Assembly: GCA_946478755.1 (NCBI GenBank)
Contig: CAMLDJ010000046.1
Coordinates: 1 to 27,451, forward strand
From: an uncultured Pedobacter sp.
GTDB lineage: Bacteria > Bacteroidota > Bacteroidia > Sphingobacteriales > Sphingobacteriaceae
Length of the DNA stretch: 27,451 bases
Direction of reading: 5' to 3'
Made by a program: the position numbers and the translations under genes. Shown in pieces: positions 6,839-17,755 of the stretch (within the stretch, counting starts at the first letter, position 1; every line of letters begins with the position of its first letter). The notes under the pieces were generated by a model. It did not search any database, was not told the origin of the DNA, and was given only the letters and a program-made list of their open reading frames with translations.

Positions 6839-6928
6839 ATGTTAAAGAAAATAGGATTTATCATTTTAATATTGTTTCTTTGCAATCCCTTCGAAAAAAG
6901 GGGAAAAGATACCAAGTTCGGGGTGTAG
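6839..6928 (+). CDS. Possible 29-aa hydrophobic peptide in the tRNA-Pro leader
   Basis: ATG at 6839 opens 29 codons beginning MLKKIGFIILILFLCNPF, and the TAG stop lies inside the tRNA D-stem region. A good promoter sits about 39 bp upstream. The N-terminus looks like a signal or membrane segment. It may be chance coding in the tRNA leader; no homologue is recognised. Confidence 0.2.
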   Translation: MLKKIGFIILILFLCNPFEKRGKDTKFGV

Positions 6929-6992
6929 CGTAGCCCGGTATCGCGCCACATTTGGGATGTGGAGGTCGTAGGTTCGAATCCTGCCACCCCGA
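6919..6992 (+). tRNA. tRNA-Pro (anticodon UGG)
   Basis: A full cloverleaf can be drawn. Acceptor stem CGGGGTG (6919-6925) pairs with CACCCCG (6985-6991), with discriminator A at 6992. The anticodon stem CCACA/TGTGG (6946-6950/6958-6962) encloses loop TTTGGGA, giving anticodon TGG. The T-arm contains GGTTCGAATCC. The 3' end is not followed by CCA in the DNA. It abuts the serine recombinase remnant and is the apparent integration site of the island. Confidence 0.96.
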
Positions 6993-6999
6993 CTTCACA

Positions 7000-7036
7000 G
7001 GACAAATCAAATTTATTTTTGATTTGTCCTTTTTTA
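7000..7036 (+). terminator. Rho-independent terminator after tRNA-Pro
   Basis: A perfect 12-bp stem (GGACAAATCAAA 7000-7011, TTTGATTTGTCC 7018-7029) with a 6-nt loop is followed by a T run (7030-7035). It ends the tRNA transcript. It lies inside the recombinase remnant, so the incoming element supplied this terminator. A diverged copy is at 13920-13949. Confidence 0.8.
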
Positions 7037-7390
7037 TTTCCTTGTAACTCGTTGTCTTTCTGCCACATAAATCTCACAACTTCATTAACCCTAACAGTTC
7101 GAAGTGAGCCATTTTCTATCTCTAATTTGTCAGGACAAACAGCAGCAATAATTTCACGCTTTTTGTCTATATCAGCTATGTCATAAGCATAATCAAGCTT
7201 TAACAAATTCTCAATCCCTAATTTCAACAATTGCTCAATGTCGATCTTTTCAGAATTTAGTTTAGCCAACTGACTGTTAAGCCTGTCCATTTTTACGGCA
7301 GTTGTAGACTTCATGTTTCTGTAATCTTCAGGCTCTATCCTTTTCGCCATTAACAACTCAGCCAGATATTCTAGTTTCTCATTTAGTTCC

Positions 7391-10300
7391 TTAATGGATA
7401 TACCAATTAATGTGTGTTTTCAATAGTAGTTGTTTTACATTATTGAACCTTGATGTCACACCAGTTTGTATCCAGTAATTAATAACCTCATTTTCGACAC
7501 CATTATTACTCAAAACCTGTGCTAGCCTAACCAATTTATGCTGCAACGAAGATGGCGTCGCATCAAGCTCTTCGTAATTTTTATAGCGTTCTAGGATAAT
7601 CAGAATTTGCGGAACGAATCTCTTGAAAACTTTAAAACGCGTTGAATCAGCAATCCAGTTTGCTAGATAGGAAAAGGAATTGATGAATTCCGGTTCAACT
7701 TGCAGCATAATCCTGTAGATCAAAATATTCAAAGCCTCTTGAGGTGCTCTATTTTCAACGACTGCCAAGTTAAGTTCGGCTAATACATTATTAACTACAC
7801 CCTGATCTTTGCTCAAAAGTCCAAGGTGAATATCTTCATATTTACGTTTTTTATAGAATAGTTTTCTTGCTAATACCAGATTCTGTTCAAAATCAGGTTG
7901 TATGTGAAGAATCGATTGATATTTTTCCATAAATGTGACCATTTCCTCCAATACAGGCGTGAATGTTTGCATAAAGTCATCTGAATAATCCATCCTGGCA
8001 ACCTCAGCAAGTGGAAATTTCATCTTTTCATATAATTTTAACACTTCATTTTTTGTCCAGGTTAAACCTCTTTTCTGTAATTTGGTTTTAGTCAAATTCA
8101 TCAAGTTTAAATTGTCGAACATCCCATGGATAGTATTCCCAGTAATGCCTGTATACCAAAGTCTAGGGTGTTTCAGTAGGGCCTTTTTAACCATTTTGAA
8201 AACTTCTTTATTTTGTTCGCTGTAATAGATCACTAAACGCCAGACTCTTATATTTTTCACTTTGCTATAATCCACCTCCAATAGTTTAGCGGTAAGATTC
8301 CCACGCTGTTTAGGTGTCAAAAGATTCGCTAGGTTCGCCAAGACGAACATATTCGTATCAAAGTGAAGTGTGAGATTTTCGATCAATAAATCGAACCTGG
8401 CGGAGATTGCGGGTGGCAACTTAATGCCTTTCAATTTCGTTTTATAATATTGGTTTTGATTTAGTTGATACATGAAGCTAATGGCTTGCGCACTTTCTGT
8501 AAAGACATCTGGATTCAAGCAGTCACCAATGATTGTCAGGAGAACTTCAGTATCGTCCATATAAGTGATTGTTCGCGCAAATAAATCTGAGGTAGGTGAT
8601 CTACGTTCAGAGAAGGCATTTGCTTCGAGCAAAAGATCTTTCCAGATTATCAATAGGTCCTTCTGCCAAATTTCAGGTTCTACAGCAATTAATGCTTCAG
8701 AGAGGAAGGTGTAGGTGTTTTCGCGAAACCAATGCGGGAACTGCCTTGAGTGTTGAATTAAGTTTGTGCAGATTTTCTGTAATTCGGTTGCGATTCCATT
8801 AGCTGATGCATATAATTTACCGATTCTTTTTAAAAATTTTTCATCTGAATATTGTAAACCGTAGAAAAGGAAAGCTTCGGGATAAAACTTAAACCCAGCT
8901 TCAACAACCATTAACCAGTTTTTGTTTTGAGTAAAAACCCTATGAGGAATGCACAATTGGAACCCGGAATTAATCAATAACATTAAATATTGTATAGAAC
9001 TTCCTTCGGCTGGTTTCATCGACCAGAAATCCGGTTCTTCGGGAATTTCTCGCGCGCTCACTAGTGGTAGTGGATATGCCTGGATTTTTTTTTGCAGACC
9101 TTCGAAATTATCATATACCAAATCTATCCCAGCCTTCTTGTAGTTATCGATGATGGATAACACTTGTTTATCGATTTGACCCAAATCAGCAGACCCAACG
9201 TAGTTAAGCATTTGATATAGATACAAGGAATATTCAGCATTAAAGTTCTGTTTTTGTGAGATTCCTTTCTTCAACAGATCTTCAGCACCCAGCCGGTCAA
9301 ATAGGCTAAGTAATCCTGCTTTTAGAAGGATTTCGTTTCCGGCAGGTATCCAATTCCCAAGGAATGTTTTTAGCTCATCAAATTTGTATGTGTATGCGAG
9401 GCAAAGCGCTTGATTGTATGATTTGTATGGTATTGGGTCAATGAATGGAATCGGTTTGCCTAAAAGTAACTGATGACGCTCAATCATTGGTTTCACCATC
9501 ACTGCTGTTACTGGGTTTTCAAGACATTCAAGTATGTTTTTGTGGTCCAAAACAATTCCTATAGGTAGATGATAATCTTCTATGGCATAAAGTATTAGCT
9601 TTAGCAATTTCTCCCGATTCTGCGGATCATCATTGAAATTATTTTTTAGGGATATTCTTGCAAACGAAATCAACGTATTTTGAGTATTGGTGTCGTAAGC
9701 ATCCAAGCTCGGAAGAACTAGATTCACCTCAAGCTCGTCCAGTTTTTCTACAATTGCAGTGAGTTGTAGAGGATCAATTGGCTTTCTGGTATCATAGAAT
9801 GATGCGGTTTGCCAGGCTGTTTTCCTTGCAGAAGGTGCTAGAACGTCTTTCTTACTCACGGTCACATCTGTGTTGATATCTTGCGATAAGTATTTCAGAA
9901 ATGATGTTAGAACTTCAAAATATTCATCTGGGTCGATTTCCGAATGAGTTTTTCTCTGGAGAAAATTAATAGCCTCAGGTGAACGGATAGCTATTCGCAC
10001 TATTCGATTTTGTGCATAATGCAATCGAGCGGTGGCATCCAGTTCCTTTGTATCCATGTCAATTAAATACATGTAGTTTTTGCCCTTATGGTGTTTGCTT
10101 AAAGCTTCTGAAACCCAATCGACCCATTCTAAAAAATTTGGATCAGAACCTGAAAATCCTAGCAAACAAAATGACTCTCTCAATATTGAGACATTCATCA
10201 GTTGTCGAAAGGCAGAGTGTTTTGTTTCATAGTCTTTATAGTGGTCCTTGGAGATAACATATTGTGTTTTGGGATCTCCATCAAATCCAACCTGAAAAGA

Positions 10301-11236
10301 CTTACGCTGATTTTCGTTTCTTAAAGTTCCATGTAACTTGATGAGATTACGTTTGTTGTTATTCTGAGCCAGATCAGCTCCCTTCAGAACAAGTTTGTAG
10401 CAGGATTTCCGAGCAGATATTTTGGTATTCAAATCTTCACTTGTTTCTAACTGCTGATTTGATATTTCTTTAAGTTCTTGACGTAACTTCTGATGTTTAA
10501 TTAGGTTGTCATGATATTTACTCTTATTTTCATCACCTGGAACAGAATCCTCCTTGCCTGTTTCTAAAGATTCAATATTAGTGATTTCTTCTTCATATCG
10601 GCTGATATCAACCTTTAACCTCTGTAGATCATTTTCTTTCTTGAACAAAATAAGATCAAAGTTTTTATATTCAACTTCTAAAACAGAGATTTCTTCAGTA
10701 AGTGTTTCATAAAGGGTATGATCGACACATATATCAAGTAGATCATCATAGTTAGTGGTAAACAAGTTATTCCATGGGAGGGATACAACAGTCTTGTGCA
10801 AGCTTAATTTTTCGGTAGAAAGTAATTCTGTATGCTCTTTTGTTGTGAGTTGTATCGTATTGTCGGGAGTGAAACTAATAGTGGGAATACGCTCCTCTAT
10901 ATATGTGATAATTGATTCGGGCATTTCCTTTAATTCAATATACTTTGAAACCACCTCCAGGTATTTTTCTCGTTTTAATATTTTTTCAGCCTCAGTTCGA
11001 TAATATTTATCTTTTGTCAATTTAGCCTCCGGCTCAGTTTGGCTTAAATATTTTTCATAAGCAGCCGAGATTTGATTGTCAAAAAGTTCAACGGTAAGAT
11101 CAAAAAGCATTTCGTTCCAGTCAGGGAATAACTTGCTTACATTTTTGCTAAAACCAGATCCGACAAGTAAAGACATCTGATTCTCATAAAGTGCTTTTCG
11201 TAAATTTTCTATTTGTTCTGAAGTCGTTAATTCCAT
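7391..11236 (-). CDS. SIR2-domain (predicted NADase) defence-type protein with coiled-coil insertion, 1281 aa
   Basis: The frame is open back to 11374, but the first 46 codons look non-coding; I place the start at 11236 (MELTTSEQIENL). The N-terminal SIR2 fold shows LLVGSGFS (23-30), TTNYDDLL (160-167) and KLHGTL (300-305), then GFSGSDPNF (360-368). N162 and H302 correspond to the Asn and His essential in SIR2 NADases such as ThsA and DSR2, where they lie about 40 residues apart. Here they are 140 apart because a Lys/Glu-rich coiled-coil segment (about 180-275) is inserted. Residues about 430-1281 are helical, without motifs I recognise, probably an alpha-solenoid sensor as in DSR proteins. 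The likely role is phage-triggered NAD+ depletion (family inference). A 774-aa gene diverges from it across 182 bp. Its 3' end overlaps the recombinase remnant. The gene looks AT-richer than the flanking sugar genes, consistent with transfer. Confidence 0.85.
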   Translation of the reverse strand: MELTTSEQIENLRKALYENQMSLLVGSGFSKNVSKLFPDWNEMLFDLTVELFDNQISAAYEKYLSQTEPEAKLTKDKYYRTEAEKILKREKYLEVVSKYIELKEMPESIITYIEERIPTISFTPDNTIQLTTKEHTELLSTEKLSLHKTVVSLPWNNLFTTNYDDLLDICVDHTLYETLTEEISVLEVEYKNFDLILFKKENDLQRLKVDISRYEEEITNIESLETGKEDSVPGDENKSKYHDNLIKHQKLRQELKEISNQQLETSEDLNTKISARKSCYKLVLKGADLAQNNNKRNLIKLHGTLRNENQRKSFQVGFDGDPKTQYVISKDHYKDYETKHSAFRQLMNVSILRESFCLLGFSGSDPNFLEWVDWVSEALSKHHKGKNYMYLIDMDTKELDATARLHYAQNRIVRIAIRSPEAINFLQRKTHSEIDPDEYFEVLTSFLKYLSQDINTDVTVSKKDVLAPSARKTAWQTASFYDTRKPIDPLQLTAIVEKLDELEVNLVLPSLDAYDTNTQNTLISFARISLKNNFNDDPQNREKLLKLILYAIEDYHLPIGIVLDHKNILECLENPVTAVMVKPMIERHQLLLGKPIPFIDPIPYKSYNQALCLAYTYKFDELKTFLGNWIPAGNEILLKAGLLSLFDRLGAEDLLKKGISQKQNFNAEYSLYLYQMLNYVGSADLGQIDKQVLSIIDNYKKAGIDLVYDNFEGLQKKIQAYPLPLVSAREIPEEPDFWSMKPAEGSSIQYLMLLINSGFQLCIPHRVFTQNKNWLMVVEAGFKFYPEAFLFYGLQYSDEKFLKRIGKLYASANGIATELQKICTNLIQHSRQFPHWFRENTYTFLSEALIAVEPEIWQKDLLIIWKDLLLEANAFSERRSPTSDLFARTITYMDDTEVLLTIIGDCLNPDVFTESAQAISFMYQLNQNQYYKTKLKGIKLPPAISARFDLLIENLTLHFDTNMFVLANLANLLTPKQRGNLTAKLLEVDYSKVKNIRVWRLVIYYSEQNKEVFKMVKKALLKHPRLWYTGITGNTIHGMFDNLNLMNLTKTKLQKRGLTWTKNEVLKLYEKMKFPLAEVARMDYSDDFMQTFTPVLEEMVTFMEKYQSILHIQPDFEQNLVLARKLFYKKRKYEDIHLGLLSKDQGVVNNVLAELNLAVVENRAPQEALNILIYRIMLQVEPEFINSFSYLANWIADSTRFKVFKRFVPQILIILERYKNYEELDATPSSLQHKLVRLAQVLSNNGVENEVINYWIQTGVTSRFNNVKQLLLKTHINWYIH

Positions 11237-11418
11237 GTCGTTAATTTGTCTGCACGAGTGTATGCAAAATTGGTGATCAAAACAAACTGACCTTATAATT
11301 AAATGGATAGGAGGCAAGAAGCATTTTCGATAATTATGATTGTCGATGTTTATATATTTACAATTTGAGTGCAAAAAACTAATGTTAGTTATGTTCCACT
11401 TTGGTTATACTTGTATCT

Positions 11419-13743
11419 ATGACACGGCAATCAAATTCATACGTTTATACCACACCGCGACACAATCGCTATTTAATTTTTGTTTCAGATTCGATTACAG
11501 AGGAAAATTTAAGGACATTATTTTCGGCGAGTCTTAGGATTTGGGGTGGGAGATACAATCCAATAATTCCGGTTAAAGATGGTGTAATATCTGAAGAGTG
11601 GCTTGCGATTGCAAGACATTATGATCCCGATTTCATTTATTATCACCCTGATGTTGATTTGGAGTACATCAAAAGCCTCCATGTTTTTGCCCCGGCTGAA
11701 TATCAAGAGCTACGTAGAGATGGTAGATATCATTTGCCAGGTGTAAATGTACATAGCCTTTTACACGACACCATTCGTGGTGACAGCTATTTTAAAGGGC
11801 CATTGTCTGTTATGCAAAGTTCTGGTTTTTATAACTTAGAAATCCCTGCGAAGCATTTTTACTCACTTAATTTGGGACTCGCTGATCTGTTCTTAGGTGA
11901 AGACAAATATGTCATGAAGTATAAACAACTCAATATCGATAAGTCAAACTTCGAAAAGATCAATCGTAAGATCTATGAAACAGATCCCTTTTTCAAGTCA
12001 ATGCTCTCTGCAATTTATCTAAATACAAACTATTACCGAAGCATAAGCACTACGAGCTTAGATAATTTTGAACTGGTCGTTTATGAGGAGGATAACTATT
12101 TTGACGATCTTCTCTATTTCTGGAATCGACAGTTATACATTGAACCAAATCACTATAGTTTGAGCCAGGTTGTAGTATCTTGTAGTGAATTGGATATCCT
12201 GCTGGAAACCAGTGATTTTGAAGCGCTGCTTGCTGCCTTGGATAAGAAATGGAAAACCAAGGTCACGTCTTTGACGCTAAATTTATCAAAATTGAAGGAA
12301 ATCAGAGACAAAGTTCAATCAAAGTGCAAATCCGTTTCGATCAGCCATTACGCAATTAGCGATTTCCCGTTCAAGGTGGATAATTGCTATAGTACTAAAC
12401 TGATCAACTTTAAGGCAAGCAAGAACGTGATTTTGGGTCAGAAAGGATATTTGAAGTTCCCCGAACTCAATCTGAACACAAACTTTAAATCCTTTGATGG
12501 ATCATACGTCATTGATCTTGCGATTGAGCGAGAGGGAGAATCACAAAAACGAATGATCAAGTTCCCATATTATACTTCACTTTTTCATTTGGTTTGCAGG
12601 ACAGATTGCAGAATTAACAAAGACCATAATGTTAGCGTTTTTGTTGATCAGGAGCAAATAGGCATAGAAATCAGAATTCCCAGTGATGCAGATATCTTTC
12701 AAAGTCTGCTTGCTTACAGGTCCATTCAGAAAGAACATATTAAAATGCCGTTGGAACGCTCATATCTCAGCGCTGCCGGTCAGAAACTTTCTGCTTTAGT
12801 TAGGTTGTTTGACAACGATTGGGCTAATGTCGCTTCTTTTTTAGAAGAAAAGTTTTGGATCGATATATTCAGAAGCCATTCTGATCTTGGAAAAAATAGC
12901 ATCACGTCTGGAAAGGGAACATTTAGTTTCAGGGATGTGTTTGATGAAAGGAAAGGTTTGTATAAAAAACATTCATATGTTTTGCAAAAAGGAAGACTGC
13001 CAGAAGAAGGAGATATGAAAGAGGACCCGGCATTGGCAGAAAGAAATCTAGAGCGTTACCTTGAAGATGATAATGAATACCATCTGACTCGTGACCTCCA
13101 GTATTTGGTGGAAACTAACGGCCTTTTCATCGGAATGAAAGTTAAATGCCATCATTGTGGCTCAAAAAAATGGTATTCTCTTGAGGAACTTAATGCAAAA
13201 ATAGCATGCAAAGGCTGTTATAATGAAGCAATACCTCATATTGAATCTCCCCTTTATTACCGTGTTAGTGATGTGATCAGGAATAATCTAGTTAGTGATT
13301 ATTCCTCAGATAAAAATGAATTTGATGGTAATTATTTTGTTCTAAGAGCGCTTATCTCTCTGCGTAATGATCATAAGTGGTGCAGGTCTAGTTTCATATG
13401 GTCTCCTCCGATGGAAATTAGAATCGCTGGCAAACATCCTCGTACTACCGATATTGATATTTTGGCCCTTCAGGATGGAAAATTGATAATGGGAGAAGTA
13501 AAGGCACGTGCTGGATTGTTTACAAAAAAGGATATAGACAACTTAATTTGGATAGGGAAGAATCTATTGCCGGATGTCATTATACTTGCTTATCAATCCG
13601 GAAGATTGGGCGAACAAATTCAAAAAATTAAAAATGCTATCGGTCGCCCTGAATGTGAGGTGATAGACTTCAAAATTGGTAATTCTTATTATAAATTCGG
13701 AGGCCTGTTCGGAATCGATGGTTCAATGGAAATTCAGGAGTAA
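11419..13743 (+). CDS. Uncharacterised 774-aa protein: zinc ribbon plus PD-(D/E)XK-like nuclease C-terminus
   Basis: The frame extends to a TTG at 11401, but the ATG at 11419 gives MTRQSNSYVYTTPRHNRYLIFV, whose beta strand suits a domain start. Three parts can be seen. (a) An alpha/beta N-terminal domain (10-110) has WGGRYNPIIPV at 42-52 and HYDPDFIYYHPD at 67-78. (b) A long middle region (110-560) matches nothing I know. (c) A zinc ribbon has C577/C580 and C597/C600, followed by TDIDILAL (677-684) and MGEVKA (691-696). That D-x(about 13)-E-V-K spacing is the active-site pattern of PD-(D/E)XK nucleases (D678 or D680, E693, K695). The protein diverges from the coiled-coil SIR2 gene and shares its intergenic control region, so the two may form one system. 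I know no named system with this pair. Nuclease activity is predicted from the motif only. Confidence 0.8.
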   Translation: MTRQSNSYVYTTPRHNRYLIFVSDSITEENLRTLFSASLRIWGGRYNPIIPVKDGVISEEWLAIARHYDPDFIYYHPDVDLEYIKSLHVFAPAEYQELRRDGRYHLPGVNVHSLLHDTIRGDSYFKGPLSVMQSSGFYNLEIPAKHFYSLNLGLADLFLGEDKYVMKYKQLNIDKSNFEKINRKIYETDPFFKSMLSAIYLNTNYYRSISTTSLDNFELVVYEEDNYFDDLLYFWNRQLYIEPNHYSLSQVVVSCSELDILLETSDFEALLAALDKKWKTKVTSLTLNLSKLKEIRDKVQSKCKSVSISHYAISDFPFKVDNCYSTKLINFKASKNVILGQKGYLKFPELNLNTNFKSFDGSYVIDLAIEREGESQKRMIKFPYYTSLFHLVCRTDCRINKDHNVSVFVDQEQIGIEIRIPSDADIFQSLLAYRSIQKEHIKMPLERSYLSAAGQKLSALVRLFDNDWANVASFLEEKFWIDIFRSHSDLGKNSITSGKGTFSFRDVFDERKGLYKKHSYVLQKGRLPEEGDMKEDPALAERNLERYLEDDNEYHLTRDLQYLVETNGLFIGMKVKCHHCGSKKWYSLEELNAKIACKGCYNEAIPHIESPLYYRVSDVIRNNLVSDYSSDKNEFDGNYFVLRALISLRNDHKWCRSSFIWSPPMEIRIAGKHPRTTDIDILALQDGKLIMGEVKARAGLFTKKDIDNLIWIGKNLLPDVIILAYQSGRLGEQIQKIKNAIGRPECEVIDFKIGNSYYKFGGLFGIDGSMEIQE

Positions 13744-13830
13744 TTTATTACCCGAAAAAAATCATTTAAGTACTTCAAATACTTATACATGATCATGGCA
13801 ATCAGAATTTACTTGAAAATCTTTATCCGA

Positions 13831-14018
13831 TCACTGTCTCTCGGGAAGAACTAAAGCTGCCAATAACCTCAAATCATGCAGAAAAAGGTTCGAAATCTGC
13901 ACAGGAAAGCGACTTTACAGGATAAGTCAAATTTATTTTTAATCTATCCTTTTTTATTTCCATGTAACTTGTTGTTTTTCTGTTAGATAATCTTCACGAT
14001 TTTATTGATTCGAAGTCT
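13831..14018 (-). pseudogene. Second serine recombinase 3'-end remnant, decayed, between the two SIR2 cassettes
   Basis: Minus-strand translation from 14018 gives RLRINKIVKII, stop, QKNNKLHGNKKG, stop, IKNKFDLSC. This matches the tail of the tRNA-side remnant (VRVNEVVRFMWQ, LQGNKKGQ, KNKFDLSC) but has two in-frame stops. After a frameshift near 13910 the frame continues to a final stop at 13831-13833 as ISNLFLHDLRLLA and then LVLPERQ. Bases 13841-13920 are an imperfect direct repeat of 17681-17760, and 13920-13975 resemble the terminator and recombinase tail at 7000-7055. The gap from the nuclease-like gene (13744-13830) holds nothing else I recognise. It marks an old attachment junction. Confidence 0.65.
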
Positions 14019-14066
14019 TTGAAATGCGCACGTTTTCAATGTGCATTTTATCAGGGCATGAAGCTG

Positions 14067-16610
14067 CTAGCCGAAATGGTACATTCTATCGATTTTTCTT
14101 GGTAGGGTTGTTTGGATTATGGCCAAGTCAGGTAGGGATACCTGTTGTATTTTTGTTCCTTCTTCAAGCATTAGCGCCCGCTTACCGTCAATGTAGATGG
14201 CTTTGAACATGTCGCGGGTTTTGCCGCGGACAAGATCTTGCGGAATTGCACCAGGCTGGCCTTTTGCCACGATCAGTACTGAACCTTGAATGTTCTCAAA
14301 GAATTGGATCAGATTTCCCGTTTCATACATATCCAAAAATCCGGCTATCATATTTATTTGGCCACCTTCAGAACTTGTATCGAAGGTAAAACAGTTTTTG
14401 TGAGGGAATAATATGGTCAGTAGTGGCAGCTCGAAACTGGTCTGGGGATCAAAGAAAAACAGTATCGTCGATGATGGACCAACTTTATGCCCAATCCTGC
14501 ACCTTACCACCAAACATTCTCCATCTAACCAGCCCACTGTGCTAAGTGTCACATCCTGAAAGTTCATCCTGAATTCTTGCCCTTCAATATCGGCCAGGTC
14601 TCCATCCTCGGGAAAATAGCTATTGAGTTCATTCCAATAACCAAGGATATTCCGGCTAGAGATGACTGGAATGTATTCTCCAGAAATATACTCAAAAACA
14701 ACATTTTCCTTTAGTCCAGGAGACATACCAGCAGTACAGAATATCTTCCCCGATTTTTGTAGCCGTAGATAGTCGCCATGGCCACGGATAAGATTAGAAG
14801 TTATTATCTCTGAAAAATTCGCTATCGTCACACAAAGCTTATTCGTGAAAACATTGAGCAACACATCATTTCCCTCCTGTATCACAAGGATTTTCCAGAT
14901 CTTATCATTCTTTTGTGCGTGGTAGAATTTTACCGGCTCCAAGTCTCCGCATGGATCCCATAACATGCAATCGAGCGCGTTGCATGCGACGACTATTTTC
15001 TTACCATTATAGGCCACAAGTTTGGCATCCTCAAAGTCGAGCCTATCCTGCCACGGAAGTTCAGCAAGCGGTTCATATGGGACACTAGGTGCGTTCAGGG
15101 TAATAGCAATGTTCTCAACCATTAACAGGAGCTCACCTGGTAGTTTTTTTGCAAGTTTTGCAGGACGTTTTTCCTCATAGAGATCCTCAGGTGCTAGCGA
15201 AAGAACAGATTTCAACGAATCCATAATGCGTTTCAGGTTCTCAAAGAAATAATCGTCTCCATCAAACTCCTCCAGCTTACCACCACGCTTTTTCCAATTG
15301 ATCGCCTCATGGTAAAACTGGGTTAGGTGCCGACTGAAAAAATAGGGATGGATGACATTGGGATGACGTAGCTCAATATCGCGAAGCACTTCATCTGAGA
15401 ACTTTTGCAGCGCTTCATACGCAAAGATGCCCATATTGATATATGCGATATTGTTCACCTTTTCGCTATCCTGCCAGCTTTTGTTCCACAGCTCGATATT
15501 TTCGTGAAGCTGGGCCACATTGATCATAGACCTGATGATCAGTTGCTTGTTCTTGAATTGTTGCTGCTTGTCGTTGATCAGCTTGTTATAGCTTTCTACT
15601 GCGTCCTGAAATATCTTCAACTGATCGTTGTCTAGCCAGTAATGCGGGGAACCGAGGTTTTCTCTAACAAATGCTTCCACGCCAGATTGAAGTTCGGTCT
15701 CGGGCTGGGTTGCTAAAATCCTGGATAGTCCTTCGAATGCCTTTGCTTTGCGTTTTTCGTAACGCTTGATGATGACATCCGCATTTGGATTAATGCCATT
15801 TATGAAATCAGGAAGGCCATCGTGCTCGGATCCATATGCCACCATATGCACGTTGCATTCCTGCATAAGTTCCTTTTGAGAGGTCGATCCGATCTCGCTG
15901 TCCTTGACTAAAAGATAATGTTCGCCGGTAATGTCCGGGAACCATTCTCTCATCAGTTTTAATAAGGTGGAAAAATCTTCGTCCATTACCCCATCCCTGC
16001 TACAGCCGATGAAAAGAAAAGTCCTATTCATCCAGAGTTCCTGCAAGATATGCTTGTACGCCAATGCCTCTTTCAACCGCTCATAGTCCTCTGCACTGAA
16101 AATAGCAGTATCAGGTCTTGTATAGATACCGTGAAGATGAAAAATGAAGGGTTTTGCAGTTTGTAGGCAACGATAAATTTCTTCATGCTGCTGCCAATCC
16201 AGCGCAAGATCGGTTTCTATATTACCCACGTTACGTAGCAAGTCGTCATAATTTGTGGTAGCAATTAGCGGTTGGCATAGGTTCTGGATACTTTCAATCA
16301 GTGCTTCTGATTTGACTTGGGGGCTCCCCAGGGTGTCTGAAAACCAATTCACATACGGTCTGTTTGGCGCATTGAGTAGCGTTTTTACAATGCTTGCTGC
16401 TTCGGTTAGCTTCCATTGTTTCAACAGTTCTCTTGCCTTGCCGATTACAGACTCATCAAGCGAGGCATCCTCAGCATAGTCCAGGCCACTGGCGACCAGG
16501 CCAGACCAACTTGGAAGTGCTGCTGTAGCGTAAGAAACACCCGCACCAACCACCGGTACAATCTTTCCCTCGGCAAGTTTGACTTTTAGTTTTTGTACAT
16601 AATTGATCAT
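14067..16610 (-). CDS. SIR2-domain protein with predicted C-terminal beta-propeller, 847 aa
   Basis: Residues 17-26 are IVPVVGAGVS, the nucleotide-binding loop of SIR2_2-type proteins. ATTNYDDLLR (117-126) supplies N120 and FHLHG (157-161) supplies H160, the canonical 40-residue spacing of catalytic Asn and His in SIR2 NADases. LFIGCSRDGVMDEDF (199-213) ends the fold. Residues about 285-505 are helical. From about 525 on, repeated four-strand-like blocks (KLVAYNGKKIVVACN, MLWDP, DVLLNVFTNKLCVTI, KAIYIDGKRALML) suggest a beta-propeller, a plausible ligand sensor. The probable role is abortive-infection NAD+ depletion triggered through the C-terminal part. It is last in a minus-strand operon. 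Its stop is 48 bp from a recombinase remnant, the same arrangement as the first SIR2 gene. Confidence 0.85.
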   Translation of the reverse strand: MINYVQKLKVKLAEGKIVPVVGAGVSYATAALPSWSGLVASGLDYAEDASLDESVIGKARELLKQWKLTEAASIVKTLLNAPNRPYVNWFSDTLGSPQVKSEALIESIQNLCQPLIATTNYDDLLRNVGNIETDLALDWQQHEEIYRCLQTAKPFIFHLHGIYTRPDTAIFSAEDYERLKEALAYKHILQELWMNRTFLFIGCSRDGVMDEDFSTLLKLMREWFPDITGEHYLLVKDSEIGSTSQKELMQECNVHMVAYGSEHDGLPDFINGINPNADVIIKRYEKRKAKAFEGLSRILATQPETELQSGVEAFVRENLGSPHYWLDNDQLKIFQDAVESYNKLINDKQQQFKNKQLIIRSMINVAQLHENIELWNKSWQDSEKVNNIAYINMGIFAYEALQKFSDEVLRDIELRHPNVIHPYFFSRHLTQFYHEAINWKKRGGKLEEFDGDDYFFENLKRIMDSLKSVLSLAPEDLYEEKRPAKLAKKLPGELLLMVENIAITLNAPSVPYEPLAELPWQDRLDFEDAKLVAYNGKKIVVACNALDCMLWDPCGDLEPVKFYHAQKNDKIWKILVIQEGNDVLLNVFTNKLCVTIANFSEIITSNLIRGHGDYLRLQKSGKIFCTAGMSPGLKENVVFEYISGEYIPVISSRNILGYWNELNSYFPEDGDLADIEGQEFRMNFQDVTLSTVGWLDGECLVVRCRIGHKVGPSSTILFFFDPQTSFELPLLTILFPHKNCFTFDTSSEGGQINMIAGFLDMYETGNLIQFFENIQGSVLIVAKGQPGAIPQDLVRGKTRDMFKAIYIDGKRALMLEEGTKIQQVSLPDLAIIQTTLPRKIDRMYHFG

Positions 16611-16644
16611 AGAAAAACGTTAATTATCGCGGTAAATTAGTAAA

Positions 16645-16926
16645 TTACTGGCAGACTTCTAAATTCTGAGTTATCATTCTACGAACCTTTGTAACACCCT
16701 GATGAACCAAATGATTTCTTTGCAAAATGCCCCCTGATCCGCGATACATTCCCCAACTGGCCAAGTAAAAACCAAGTTCAGGTGCATGGTCGGAAGTTTT
16801 TAATATACCATTGAAAGCATCCCGACATCTGTCCCAGCTATGGTAGCGGCTATATTTATCTGCTACGGCTATTTCTATGTATTTTTCAATAACTCCGATA
16901 ATATCCTGTTTTGCTATCATGTCCAT
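16645..16926 (-). CDS. Short protein of unknown function, probably C-terminally truncated
   Basis: The frame opens further upstream, but the ATG at 16926 lies one base after the TGA of the preceding gene, so I place the start there (MDMIAKQDIIGVIE, 93 aa). The sequence KYSRYHSWDRCRDAF and LGFYLASWGMYRGSGG resembles, from memory, the N-terminal half of a family of about 200-aa bacterial proteins of unknown function. Here it stops soon afterwards with an unrelated-looking tail (ITQNLEVCQ), so I suspect truncation. It is 34 bp upstream of the SIR2-propeller gene in the same operon. It could be a functional short version; no catalytic motif is visible. Confidence 0.5.
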   Translation of the reverse strand: MDMIAKQDIIGVIEKYIEIAVADKYSRYHSWDRCRDAFNGILKTSDHAPELGFYLASWGMYRGSGGILQRNHLVHQGVTKVRRMITQNLEVCQ

Positions 16927-16927
16927 A

Positions 16928-17578
16928 TCAAGTGAAATACTCTTCCTCACTTTCATTATTGCCACTCCCATCAGCAATGACATTGACACCGTTCAGGTCA
17001 AAATAACCGGGAGTGATATGTTGAGCAGAAAATTCAGTAGATTCAAAAAACTTTCTGGCACCGCTATATTCATCATAGGCAAACAGCAATATCTGAAGGT
17101 TCGCCATTTTGCCAATCCCAAGCACATGGTCAAGCGTTAGCTTGTGATCAGCGGCTAAATCCTGTGTAGTCTGATCAAAAACAGGTTTTTGAAAGTAATC
17201 GCAGTCAAAAGCCTTAATTTCAAAAACGGGTCTGACATTCCTGATCCCTAATCTGTTCACCGGTCTAACAATTGCCAGCTTATGATAAGCCAAGGAGCTA
17301 ATCGGAATGTAGATTACCTCCCAGTTTCCCCGGATTTCCTTTCTAAGCCCCTTGATCCTGACCCTAACAACGACCTCAACATCAATCATGTTCCTGCGGC
17401 CGATGTTCTCAAATTTGAAACGGTACTTATATCCGGATGGATTTTCGATAGTAGGAATTTTACTGATTGAACCAGAGAACCGAATCTTTGGTGTGAGTAC
17501 CCTGAAGGTATACCACCACACCGCGTAAGAAGCAGCAACCCCAGTTACAGTACTGATTACACCATCTATAAAGGTCAT
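16928..17578 (-). CDS. Membrane-anchored beta-rich protein of unknown function
   Basis: I place the start at the ATG at 17578 (MTFIDGVISTVTG); an upstream ATG at 17593 adds five residues. One N-terminal transmembrane segment (about residues 5-24, VISTVTGVAASYAVWWY) precedes a beta-rich domain with RFKFENIGRRNMIDVEVVVRV, a pattern seen in immunoglobulin-like and CARDB-like folds. Residues about 100-200 contain a cysteine (FDCDYF), a helical stretch and a polar tail. It is the first gene of the minus-strand operon and its stop nearly overlaps the next start, so it is translated with the SIR2 partner genes. It could tether or sense at the membrane for the SIR2 effector; that role is inferred from operon context only. 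A weak -7-like TACCTTTT lies at 17639-17632. Confidence 0.65.
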   Translation of the reverse strand: MTFIDGVISTVTGVAASYAVWWYTFRVLTPKIRFSGSISKIPTIENPSGYKYRFKFENIGRRNMIDVEVVVRVRIKGLRKEIRGNWEVIYIPISSLAYHKLAIVRPVNRLGIRNVRPVFEIKAFDCDYFQKPVFDQTTQDLAADHKLTLDHVLGIGKMANLQILLFAYDEYSGARKFFESTEFSAQHITPGYFDLNGVNVIADGSGNNESEEEYFT

Positions 17579-17670
17579 AAGCAAAAAAATCAAACGTTAA
17601 TAGTAACTCTAAAATACGCTATTCTGGGACAAAAAGGTAATCTATACAGAGTCACTTCCTAATTAACATT

Positions 17671-17755
17671 TTATTTACGTTCTGGGAGCACTAAATTCGC
17701 CAATAACCTCAAATCATGCAGGAAAAGGTTCGAAATAAGTACAGGGAGGACGACT
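17671..17755 (-). pseudogene. Third recombinase-tail remnant (last about 28 codons) at the end of cassette II
   Basis: The minus frame between stops (17758-17756 and 17673-17671) reads VVLPVLISNLFLHDLRLLA then NLVLPERK and a TAA. Over the aligned 24 codons it differs from the 13831 copy by eight synonymous changes, three amino-acid changes and a TAA/TGA stop swap, so the tail evolved as protein-coding sequence. It overlaps the 17681-17760 copy of the 80-bp direct repeat, 3,840 bp from its partner. The rest of 17594-17680 holds only the operon leader. Confidence 0.6.

Follow-up and report, generated by a model that had tools for sequence, protein, structure and literature searches.

A large undescribed protein family with two Rossmann-like lobes, a C4 zinc ribbon and a predicted PD-(D/E)XK nuclease, with a member encoded beside a SIR2 gene in a probable tRNA-Pro cassette of an uncultured Pedobacter

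We analyzed a stretch of 27,451 nucleotides from an uncultured Pedobacter sp. (contig CAMLDJ010000046.1 of assembly GCA_946478755.1; the whole stretch is called the window), in which a gene for a 774-amino-acid (aa) protein is transcribed divergently from a gene for a 1281-aa SIR2 protein. A sequence-only reading of this DNA had proposed that the two genes form an undescribed defense system. Sequence comparison indicates that the 774-aa protein belongs to a large undescribed family. We put it just above even that this protein is a stand-alone defense nuclease, in which paired N-terminal lobes sense and a C-terminal domain cuts, and that its SIR2 neighbor is an independent DSR2-like NADase carried in the same tRNA-Pro cassette. 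The family, its conservation, the predicted folds and the repeat structure around the genes were established by computation.

The 774-aa protein and its relatives

A search with the 774-aa protein returned 41 proteins at E<=1e-3, the window's own included, and all except the last cover at least 90% of the query. When an alignment that included distant members served as the query, 815 of the 7998 candidates scored matched at E<=1e-5. Among the best 120 of these 815 members listed, precomputed Pfam domains were absent throughout, and almost every named protein was called 'hypothetical protein'. PADLOC gave no match and NCBIfam no coherent match for the family, and PHROGs gave none for the 774-aa protein. 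Pfam matched the window protein with NERD only, below the cut-off, and a few of 60 alignment rows with zinc ribbons. A literature search aimed at such proteins met no description of the family, which is a weak negative.

Members were found in Bacteroidota, Cloacimonadota, Poribacteria, Acidobacteria, Gemmatimonadota, Armatimonadetes, Aminicenantes and Pseudomonadota, as judged from titled genome records at 36 loci, the last eleven of which are partial tblastn matches. Plasmid matches came from Burkholderia glumae (two), Bradyrhizobium, Sphingomonas (partial) and Photobacterium (one each). Occurrence was patchy: 5 of 395 sampled genomes of the phylum (three by weak matches) and 12 of 400 of the order (five weak), both samples containing genomes known beforehand to be positive.

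The AlphaFold2 model of the 774-aa protein, built from 41 rows, had a predicted local distance difference test score (pLDDT) of 88.4 and a predicted template modelling score (pTM) of 0.85. It placed, in order, lobe I, lobe II, a strand-rich region (residues ~320-420), a helical linker, a C4 zinc ribbon and the nuclease (Table 1). Residues 1-316 modelled alone from 60 rows reached a pLDDT of 91.5 and a pTM of 0.91, and structural comparison of the N-terminal model found no clear match. All 41 rows, among them the window's own, share W42, G44, D69, D71, L196, W235, N236, R237, S284, P317 and P383, together with the four cysteines and D680, G687, E693, K695 and F701. The Trp-Asn pair, the four Cys, the D/E/K triad and one Gly and one Asp of lobe I also showed no variation among 29 rows of greater diversity. 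Because the cysteines and the triad are kept in 41/41 and 29/29 rows, these motifs are not due to chance.

The observations of the sequence-only reading were confirmed, and its interpretation was supported in part. Its unrecognised N-terminal module has a confident model without a clear structural match, its zinc ribbon and nuclease motif are the invariant residues above, with the model carrying the nuclease domain, and the protein was without a name in all libraries searched (Pfam, PADLOC, NCBIfam, PHROGs). Rechecking of the open reading frames (ORFs) reproduced the two genes with their sizes and 182-bp divergent spacing. The motifs also lie where it had placed them: C577, C580, C597, C600, D680, E693 and K695 for the 774-aa protein, and GSGFS from 26, TTNYD with N162 and KLHG with H302 for the SIR2 protein. 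Three recombinase remnants were recognised (Table 1). An in-frame TTG 6 codons 5' of the ATG would give an alternative form of 780 aa.

We propose that the two Rossmann-like lobes would be a sensor, whose conserved W42, G44, D69/D71, D230, W235 and N236 may form one site and would detect a sign of infection, with a small ligand or a phage product the likeliest. The helical linker and zinc ribbon would position the C-terminal PD-(D/E)XK domain, which would then cut nucleic acid, DNA or RNA. The protein thus pictured probably has nuclease activity, the lobes may gate it, and the role and the substrate would be those of an antiphage enzyme. If this is true, several hundred unannotated proteins (815 counted), spread over Bacteroidota, Pseudomonadota and several further phyla, belong to a single family whose architecture, catalytic residues and strictly conserved sensor residues are defined, and the ligand of the lobes and the substrate of the nuclease become directly testable questions.

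Comparison with known nucleases

The CARF ancillary nucleases Can1 and Can2/Card1 (DUF1887, PF09002) have a PD-(D/E)XK active site of the type seen here in D680, E693 and K695. As modelled, the 774-aa protein would also share with them a C-terminal PD-(D/E)XK domain that follows a helical/winged region, and an N-terminal Rossmann-type module in one chain with the nuclease. As given in excerpts of the published descriptions, Can1 has two Rossmann-fold (CARF) domains per chain and Can2 one (PMC6981274, PMC7969007), and the two CARF domains of a single Can1 chain bind cA4 and license its C-terminal nuclease (PMC6981274). By analogy, Can1 is the closest working analogue of the 774-aa protein, with no family assignment meant. 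The lobes, however, are not recognisably CARF: hhalign against CARF gave 0.5%, and no CARF entry appeared in the 50 rows shown for each of two comparisons of the N-terminal model. The 774-aa protein also has an extra C4 zinc ribbon and is longer than the Can2/Card1 chains listed (~340-440 aa). As for a link to type III CRISPR, no Cas family was among the 25 commonest shown of 123 Pfam families in 122 neighboring genes.

A bolder form of our proposal would make the lobes a ligand sensor of a new kind, which lies outside the CARF superfamily, has converged on the paired CARF domains of Can1, binds an infection signal and activates a Card1-like nuclease in one chain. This would be a CRISPR-independent, second-messenger- or metabolite-gated defense spread across many phyla, and we consider it distinctly unlikely.

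An unlikely alternative, though slightly more credible than this, is modification-dependent (type IV-like) restriction. Here the lobes or the zinc ribbon of the 774-aa protein would read modified phage DNA directly and its nuclease would cut that DNA, without small-molecule gating. In keeping with it, no cognate methyltransferase partner was apparent, methyltransferase families occurring in at most 3 of 122 scanned neighbors (169 listed). But no Pfam modified-base reader was found at E<=0.01 in 60 rows (one of which holds the window's first 316 residues only) or at E<=0.1 in the whole window protein, and the strictest conservation beyond the nuclease and the cysteines sits in Rossmann-like lobes, unlike known DNA readers.

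The one Pfam match, to NERD (PF08378), takes in residues 673-720 (numbered in the 780-aa form that starts at the TTG), which surround the catalytic motif, and its 15.7 bits (E 0.022) fall below the gathering cut-off of 22.1. In the portion of the DefensePredictor report cited here (PMC13092281), 13 of 31 additional validated systems carry a PD-(D/E)XK domain, and its stand-alone proteins of this kind, like the 774-aa protein, have a PD-(D/E)XK core fused to unfamiliar domains. Defense genes that join a PD-(D/E)XK domain to unfamiliar extra domains are thus a known class. The 774-aa protein stands out by the size of its family, by an N-terminal module that is strictly conserved yet unassigned, and by its lack of annotation. 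For one relative, from Dyella, a search of E. coli genomes found no DNA match, at a sensitivity that would miss distant relatives.

Genes near the relatives, and the SIR2 question

As neighbors we took up to two flanking genes of at least 80 aa per side at 47 loci (169 listed, 122 scanned); several of the 47 fetched stretches are short contigs. With PADLOC at E<=1e-5, the commonest family matched 5 of the 122, followed by restriction-modification types and others (25 of 446 families shown), and each Pfam family matched at most 3 (among 25 shown of 123). Twenty neighbors inspected singly included helix-turn-helix and TIR proteins, a HamA match below cut-off that adjoins a helicase, STAND NTPases, HNH and AbiU2. 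The same 20 held metabolic genes (an aminotransferase and a glutamine amidotransferase in Cloacimonadota), and 4 were without any family. By these scans, relatives are frequently found among defense genes.

In Xanthomonas bonasiae (L026, 7340-11212), a TIR-domain gene ends ~10 bp upstream of the relative on the same strand. On a Bradyrhizobium barranii plasmid (L067, 9153-12304), the relative begins 3 bases past a PrlF/YhaV toxin-antitoxin pair, and its surroundings also include an S8 peptidase/ATPase pair and an abortive infection gene.

Members on plasmids or adjoining recombinases, and chromosomal settings as varied as the metabolic one in Cloacimonadota, could be explained if the nuclease served the mobile element or the cell (DNA processing, plasmid exclusion, repair) and not phage defense. 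We judge this very unlikely, since patchy occurrence (5/395 phylum genomes) and recurrent defense neighbors suit defense better than housekeeping.

The remaining question was whether the SIR2 gene belongs with the 774-aa gene. Seven window genes searched by blastp against 428 neighbors (36 loci) gave a recombinase match only. A custom SIR2 profile detected a SIR2 gene in the fetched stretch at 3 of 47 loci (L002, ~4 kb off; L029, adjacent; L062, ~6 kb off), so that it adjoins the relative in 1 of 47. At that locus (Dyella sp. S184, 8405-14792), a 1272-aa SIR2 gene of another subfamily lies directly downstream of the relative, and blastp at E 1e-3 showed no match between its product and the window's SIR2 protein. 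Three loci compare with 0.15 expected from a background of 25 matches in 18 of 30 genomes, these being the loci's own genomes (Poisson P ~0.0005); the figure is rough, as the two detections differ and several stretches are short. Such an enrichment is what shared defense islands predict, not a conserved pair. In 396 genomes from the order of a Chitinophagaceae metagenome-assembled genome (MAG), the SIR2 profile gave short SIR2-core matches only, none full-length. The families also differ in size, with 3 close full-length relatives and one at 78% coverage for SIR2 vs 815 for the 774-aa family.

Taken together, these data do not support the claim that the 774-aa and SIR2 proteins are one system. 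The sequence-only reading had itself named homologues that never occur with SIR2 genes as evidence against the pair; adjacency at a single locus comes very close to this, though the count of 3 in 47 is not zero. No fixed partner of the 774-aa protein exists in the loci surveyed. A true two-gene system, in which one protein senses for the other and the 182-bp region regulates both, would account for their position as divergent neighbors and the sole two large genes of one cassette, for the Dyella SIR2 and Xanthomonas TIR genes next to relatives, and for SIR2 above background. Nevertheless, with 44 of 47 loci lacking SIR2 in the fetched stretch, unmatched SIR2 proteins, very unequal families and no full-length match in the 396 genomes, it is the least probable of the explanations considered here. 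A scan of 11150-11500 for sigma-70-type promoters gave 0 matches, with a mean of 1.6 in shuffles. The divergent SIR2/nuclease pair may merely share a tRNA-targeted cassette and not form a system.

The 1281-aa SIR2 protein

The 1281-aa protein matched SIR2_2 (PF13289; E 6.5e-13) and the Dsr2 models of PADLOC (E 6.4e-30) and NCBIfam (E 5.5e-26), the last with a score of 90.9 bits where the curated cut-off is 1400, so that this cut-off does not place it in DSR2. A further mark of DSR2 is a C-terminal HEAT-type helical region that binds phage tail tube protein. A search for relatives gave 36 hits, of which four are close (a 99% near-copy, 33%, 29%, and 32% covering 78% of the query) and the other 32 match at most 25% of the query length. 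GSGFS, N162, Y163, D164 and H302 were invariant in 5 of 5 aligned rows, which include the window's own and the 99% near-copy, and the protein probably acts as an NADase. In the excerpted description of DSR2 (PMC11263360), an N-terminal SIR2 domain with conserved NYD and H precedes a long C-terminal region, as in the 1281-aa protein. DSR2 is 1005 aa long and has 38 residues between its catalytic Asn and His (N133, H171), whereas 140 separate N162 from H302 here. The added segment has many E, K and L residues and a single Pro in 120 residues, and it shows a 3.5-residue hydrophobic periodicity (power 5.4 in its first half and 2.3 in its second, against 0.35-1.7 in three other stretches), which suggests a coiled-coil hairpin.

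Probable tandem cassettes at tRNA-Pro

Table 1. Features of the window and of the 774-aa protein
Feature	Position	Strand	Basis or remark
tRNA-Pro (TGG)	6919..6993	+	inferred integration site of the cassettes
Integrase C-terminal remnant, cassette 1 left end	6997..7356	-	weak PHROG 'integrase' match, E 0.013
1281-aa SIR2 gene, DSR2-like	7391..11236	-	ATG start; ~100-residue coiled-coil-like insertion between N162 and H302
Divergent intergenic region, 182 bp	11237..11418	.	separates SIR2 gene from 774-aa gene
774-aa sensor-nuclease-like gene	11419..13743	+	ATG 11419, stop at 13743 (ORF table, alignments, model)
Lobe I, residues 18-110	11470..11748	+	Rossmann/flavodoxin-like by models; W42, G44, D71 invariant
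Lobe II, residues 205-312	12031..12354	+	Rossmann-like by models; D230 nearly invariant, W235-N236 invariant
Helical/winged-helix-like linker, residues 423-565	12685..13113	+	aligns with pre-nuclease region of Card1/Can2
C4 zinc ribbon, C577, C580, C597, C600	13123..13266	+	invariance and Pfam zinc-ribbon matches
PD-(D/E)XK-type nuclease domain, residues 637-755	13327..13683	+	D680, E693, K695; model, NERD below cut-off, alignments
Repeat D2 first copy, cassette 1 right end	13841..13905	.	85% identical over 65 nt to 17681-17745
Decayed second integrase-tail copy, cassette 2 left end	13908..14070	-	contains repeat D1 copy 13910-14029
Second SIR2 gene, 847 aa	14067..16610	-	cassette 2; between 774-aa gene and right-hand recombinase remnant
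Repeat D2 second copy, cassette 2 right end	17681..17745	.	repeat search
Tyrosine recombinase fragment, 106 aa	18053-18373		just right of cassette 2; Arm-DNA-bind_5 only

Repeat D1 (6990-7109 vs 13910-14029, 77% over 120 nt) consists of the tRNA-Pro 3' end and the tail of the integrase gene, and its second copy reads as the same tail with stops. We take the integrase remnant at the left end to be of the serine type. Alignment of the tRNA end with the internal junction scored 92 and that of the internal junction with the right end 66, both above all 500 shuffles (maximum 29), while the tRNA end and the right end scored 18, which does not exceed them. In our reading, this repeat pattern reflects two integrations in tandem at tRNA-Pro. 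Cassette 1 would carry the 1281-aa SIR2 gene and the 774-aa gene, which probably moved jointly, and cassette 2 another SIR2 gene with two small ones. The window otherwise looks like a Bacteroidota chromosome, judging from the SusC/SusD-type genes, sugar hydrolases and sigma/FecR pair that flank the region.

The second SIR2 gene went without mention in the sequence-only reading. Its 847-aa product has LmuA- and ThsA-type SIR2 matches, and it is followed on the minus strand (14067-17593) by genes for proteins of 114 aa and 221 aa, the latter with a hydrophobic N-terminus; these genes are a candidate defense operon forming the second tRNA-Pro cassette. At a locus from the order of the Chitinophagaceae MAG (L073, 2073-2288), the same tRNA-Pro has no integrase ORF and is followed by ~140 bases resembling the left end of the window's cassette, perhaps the footprint of a lost element.
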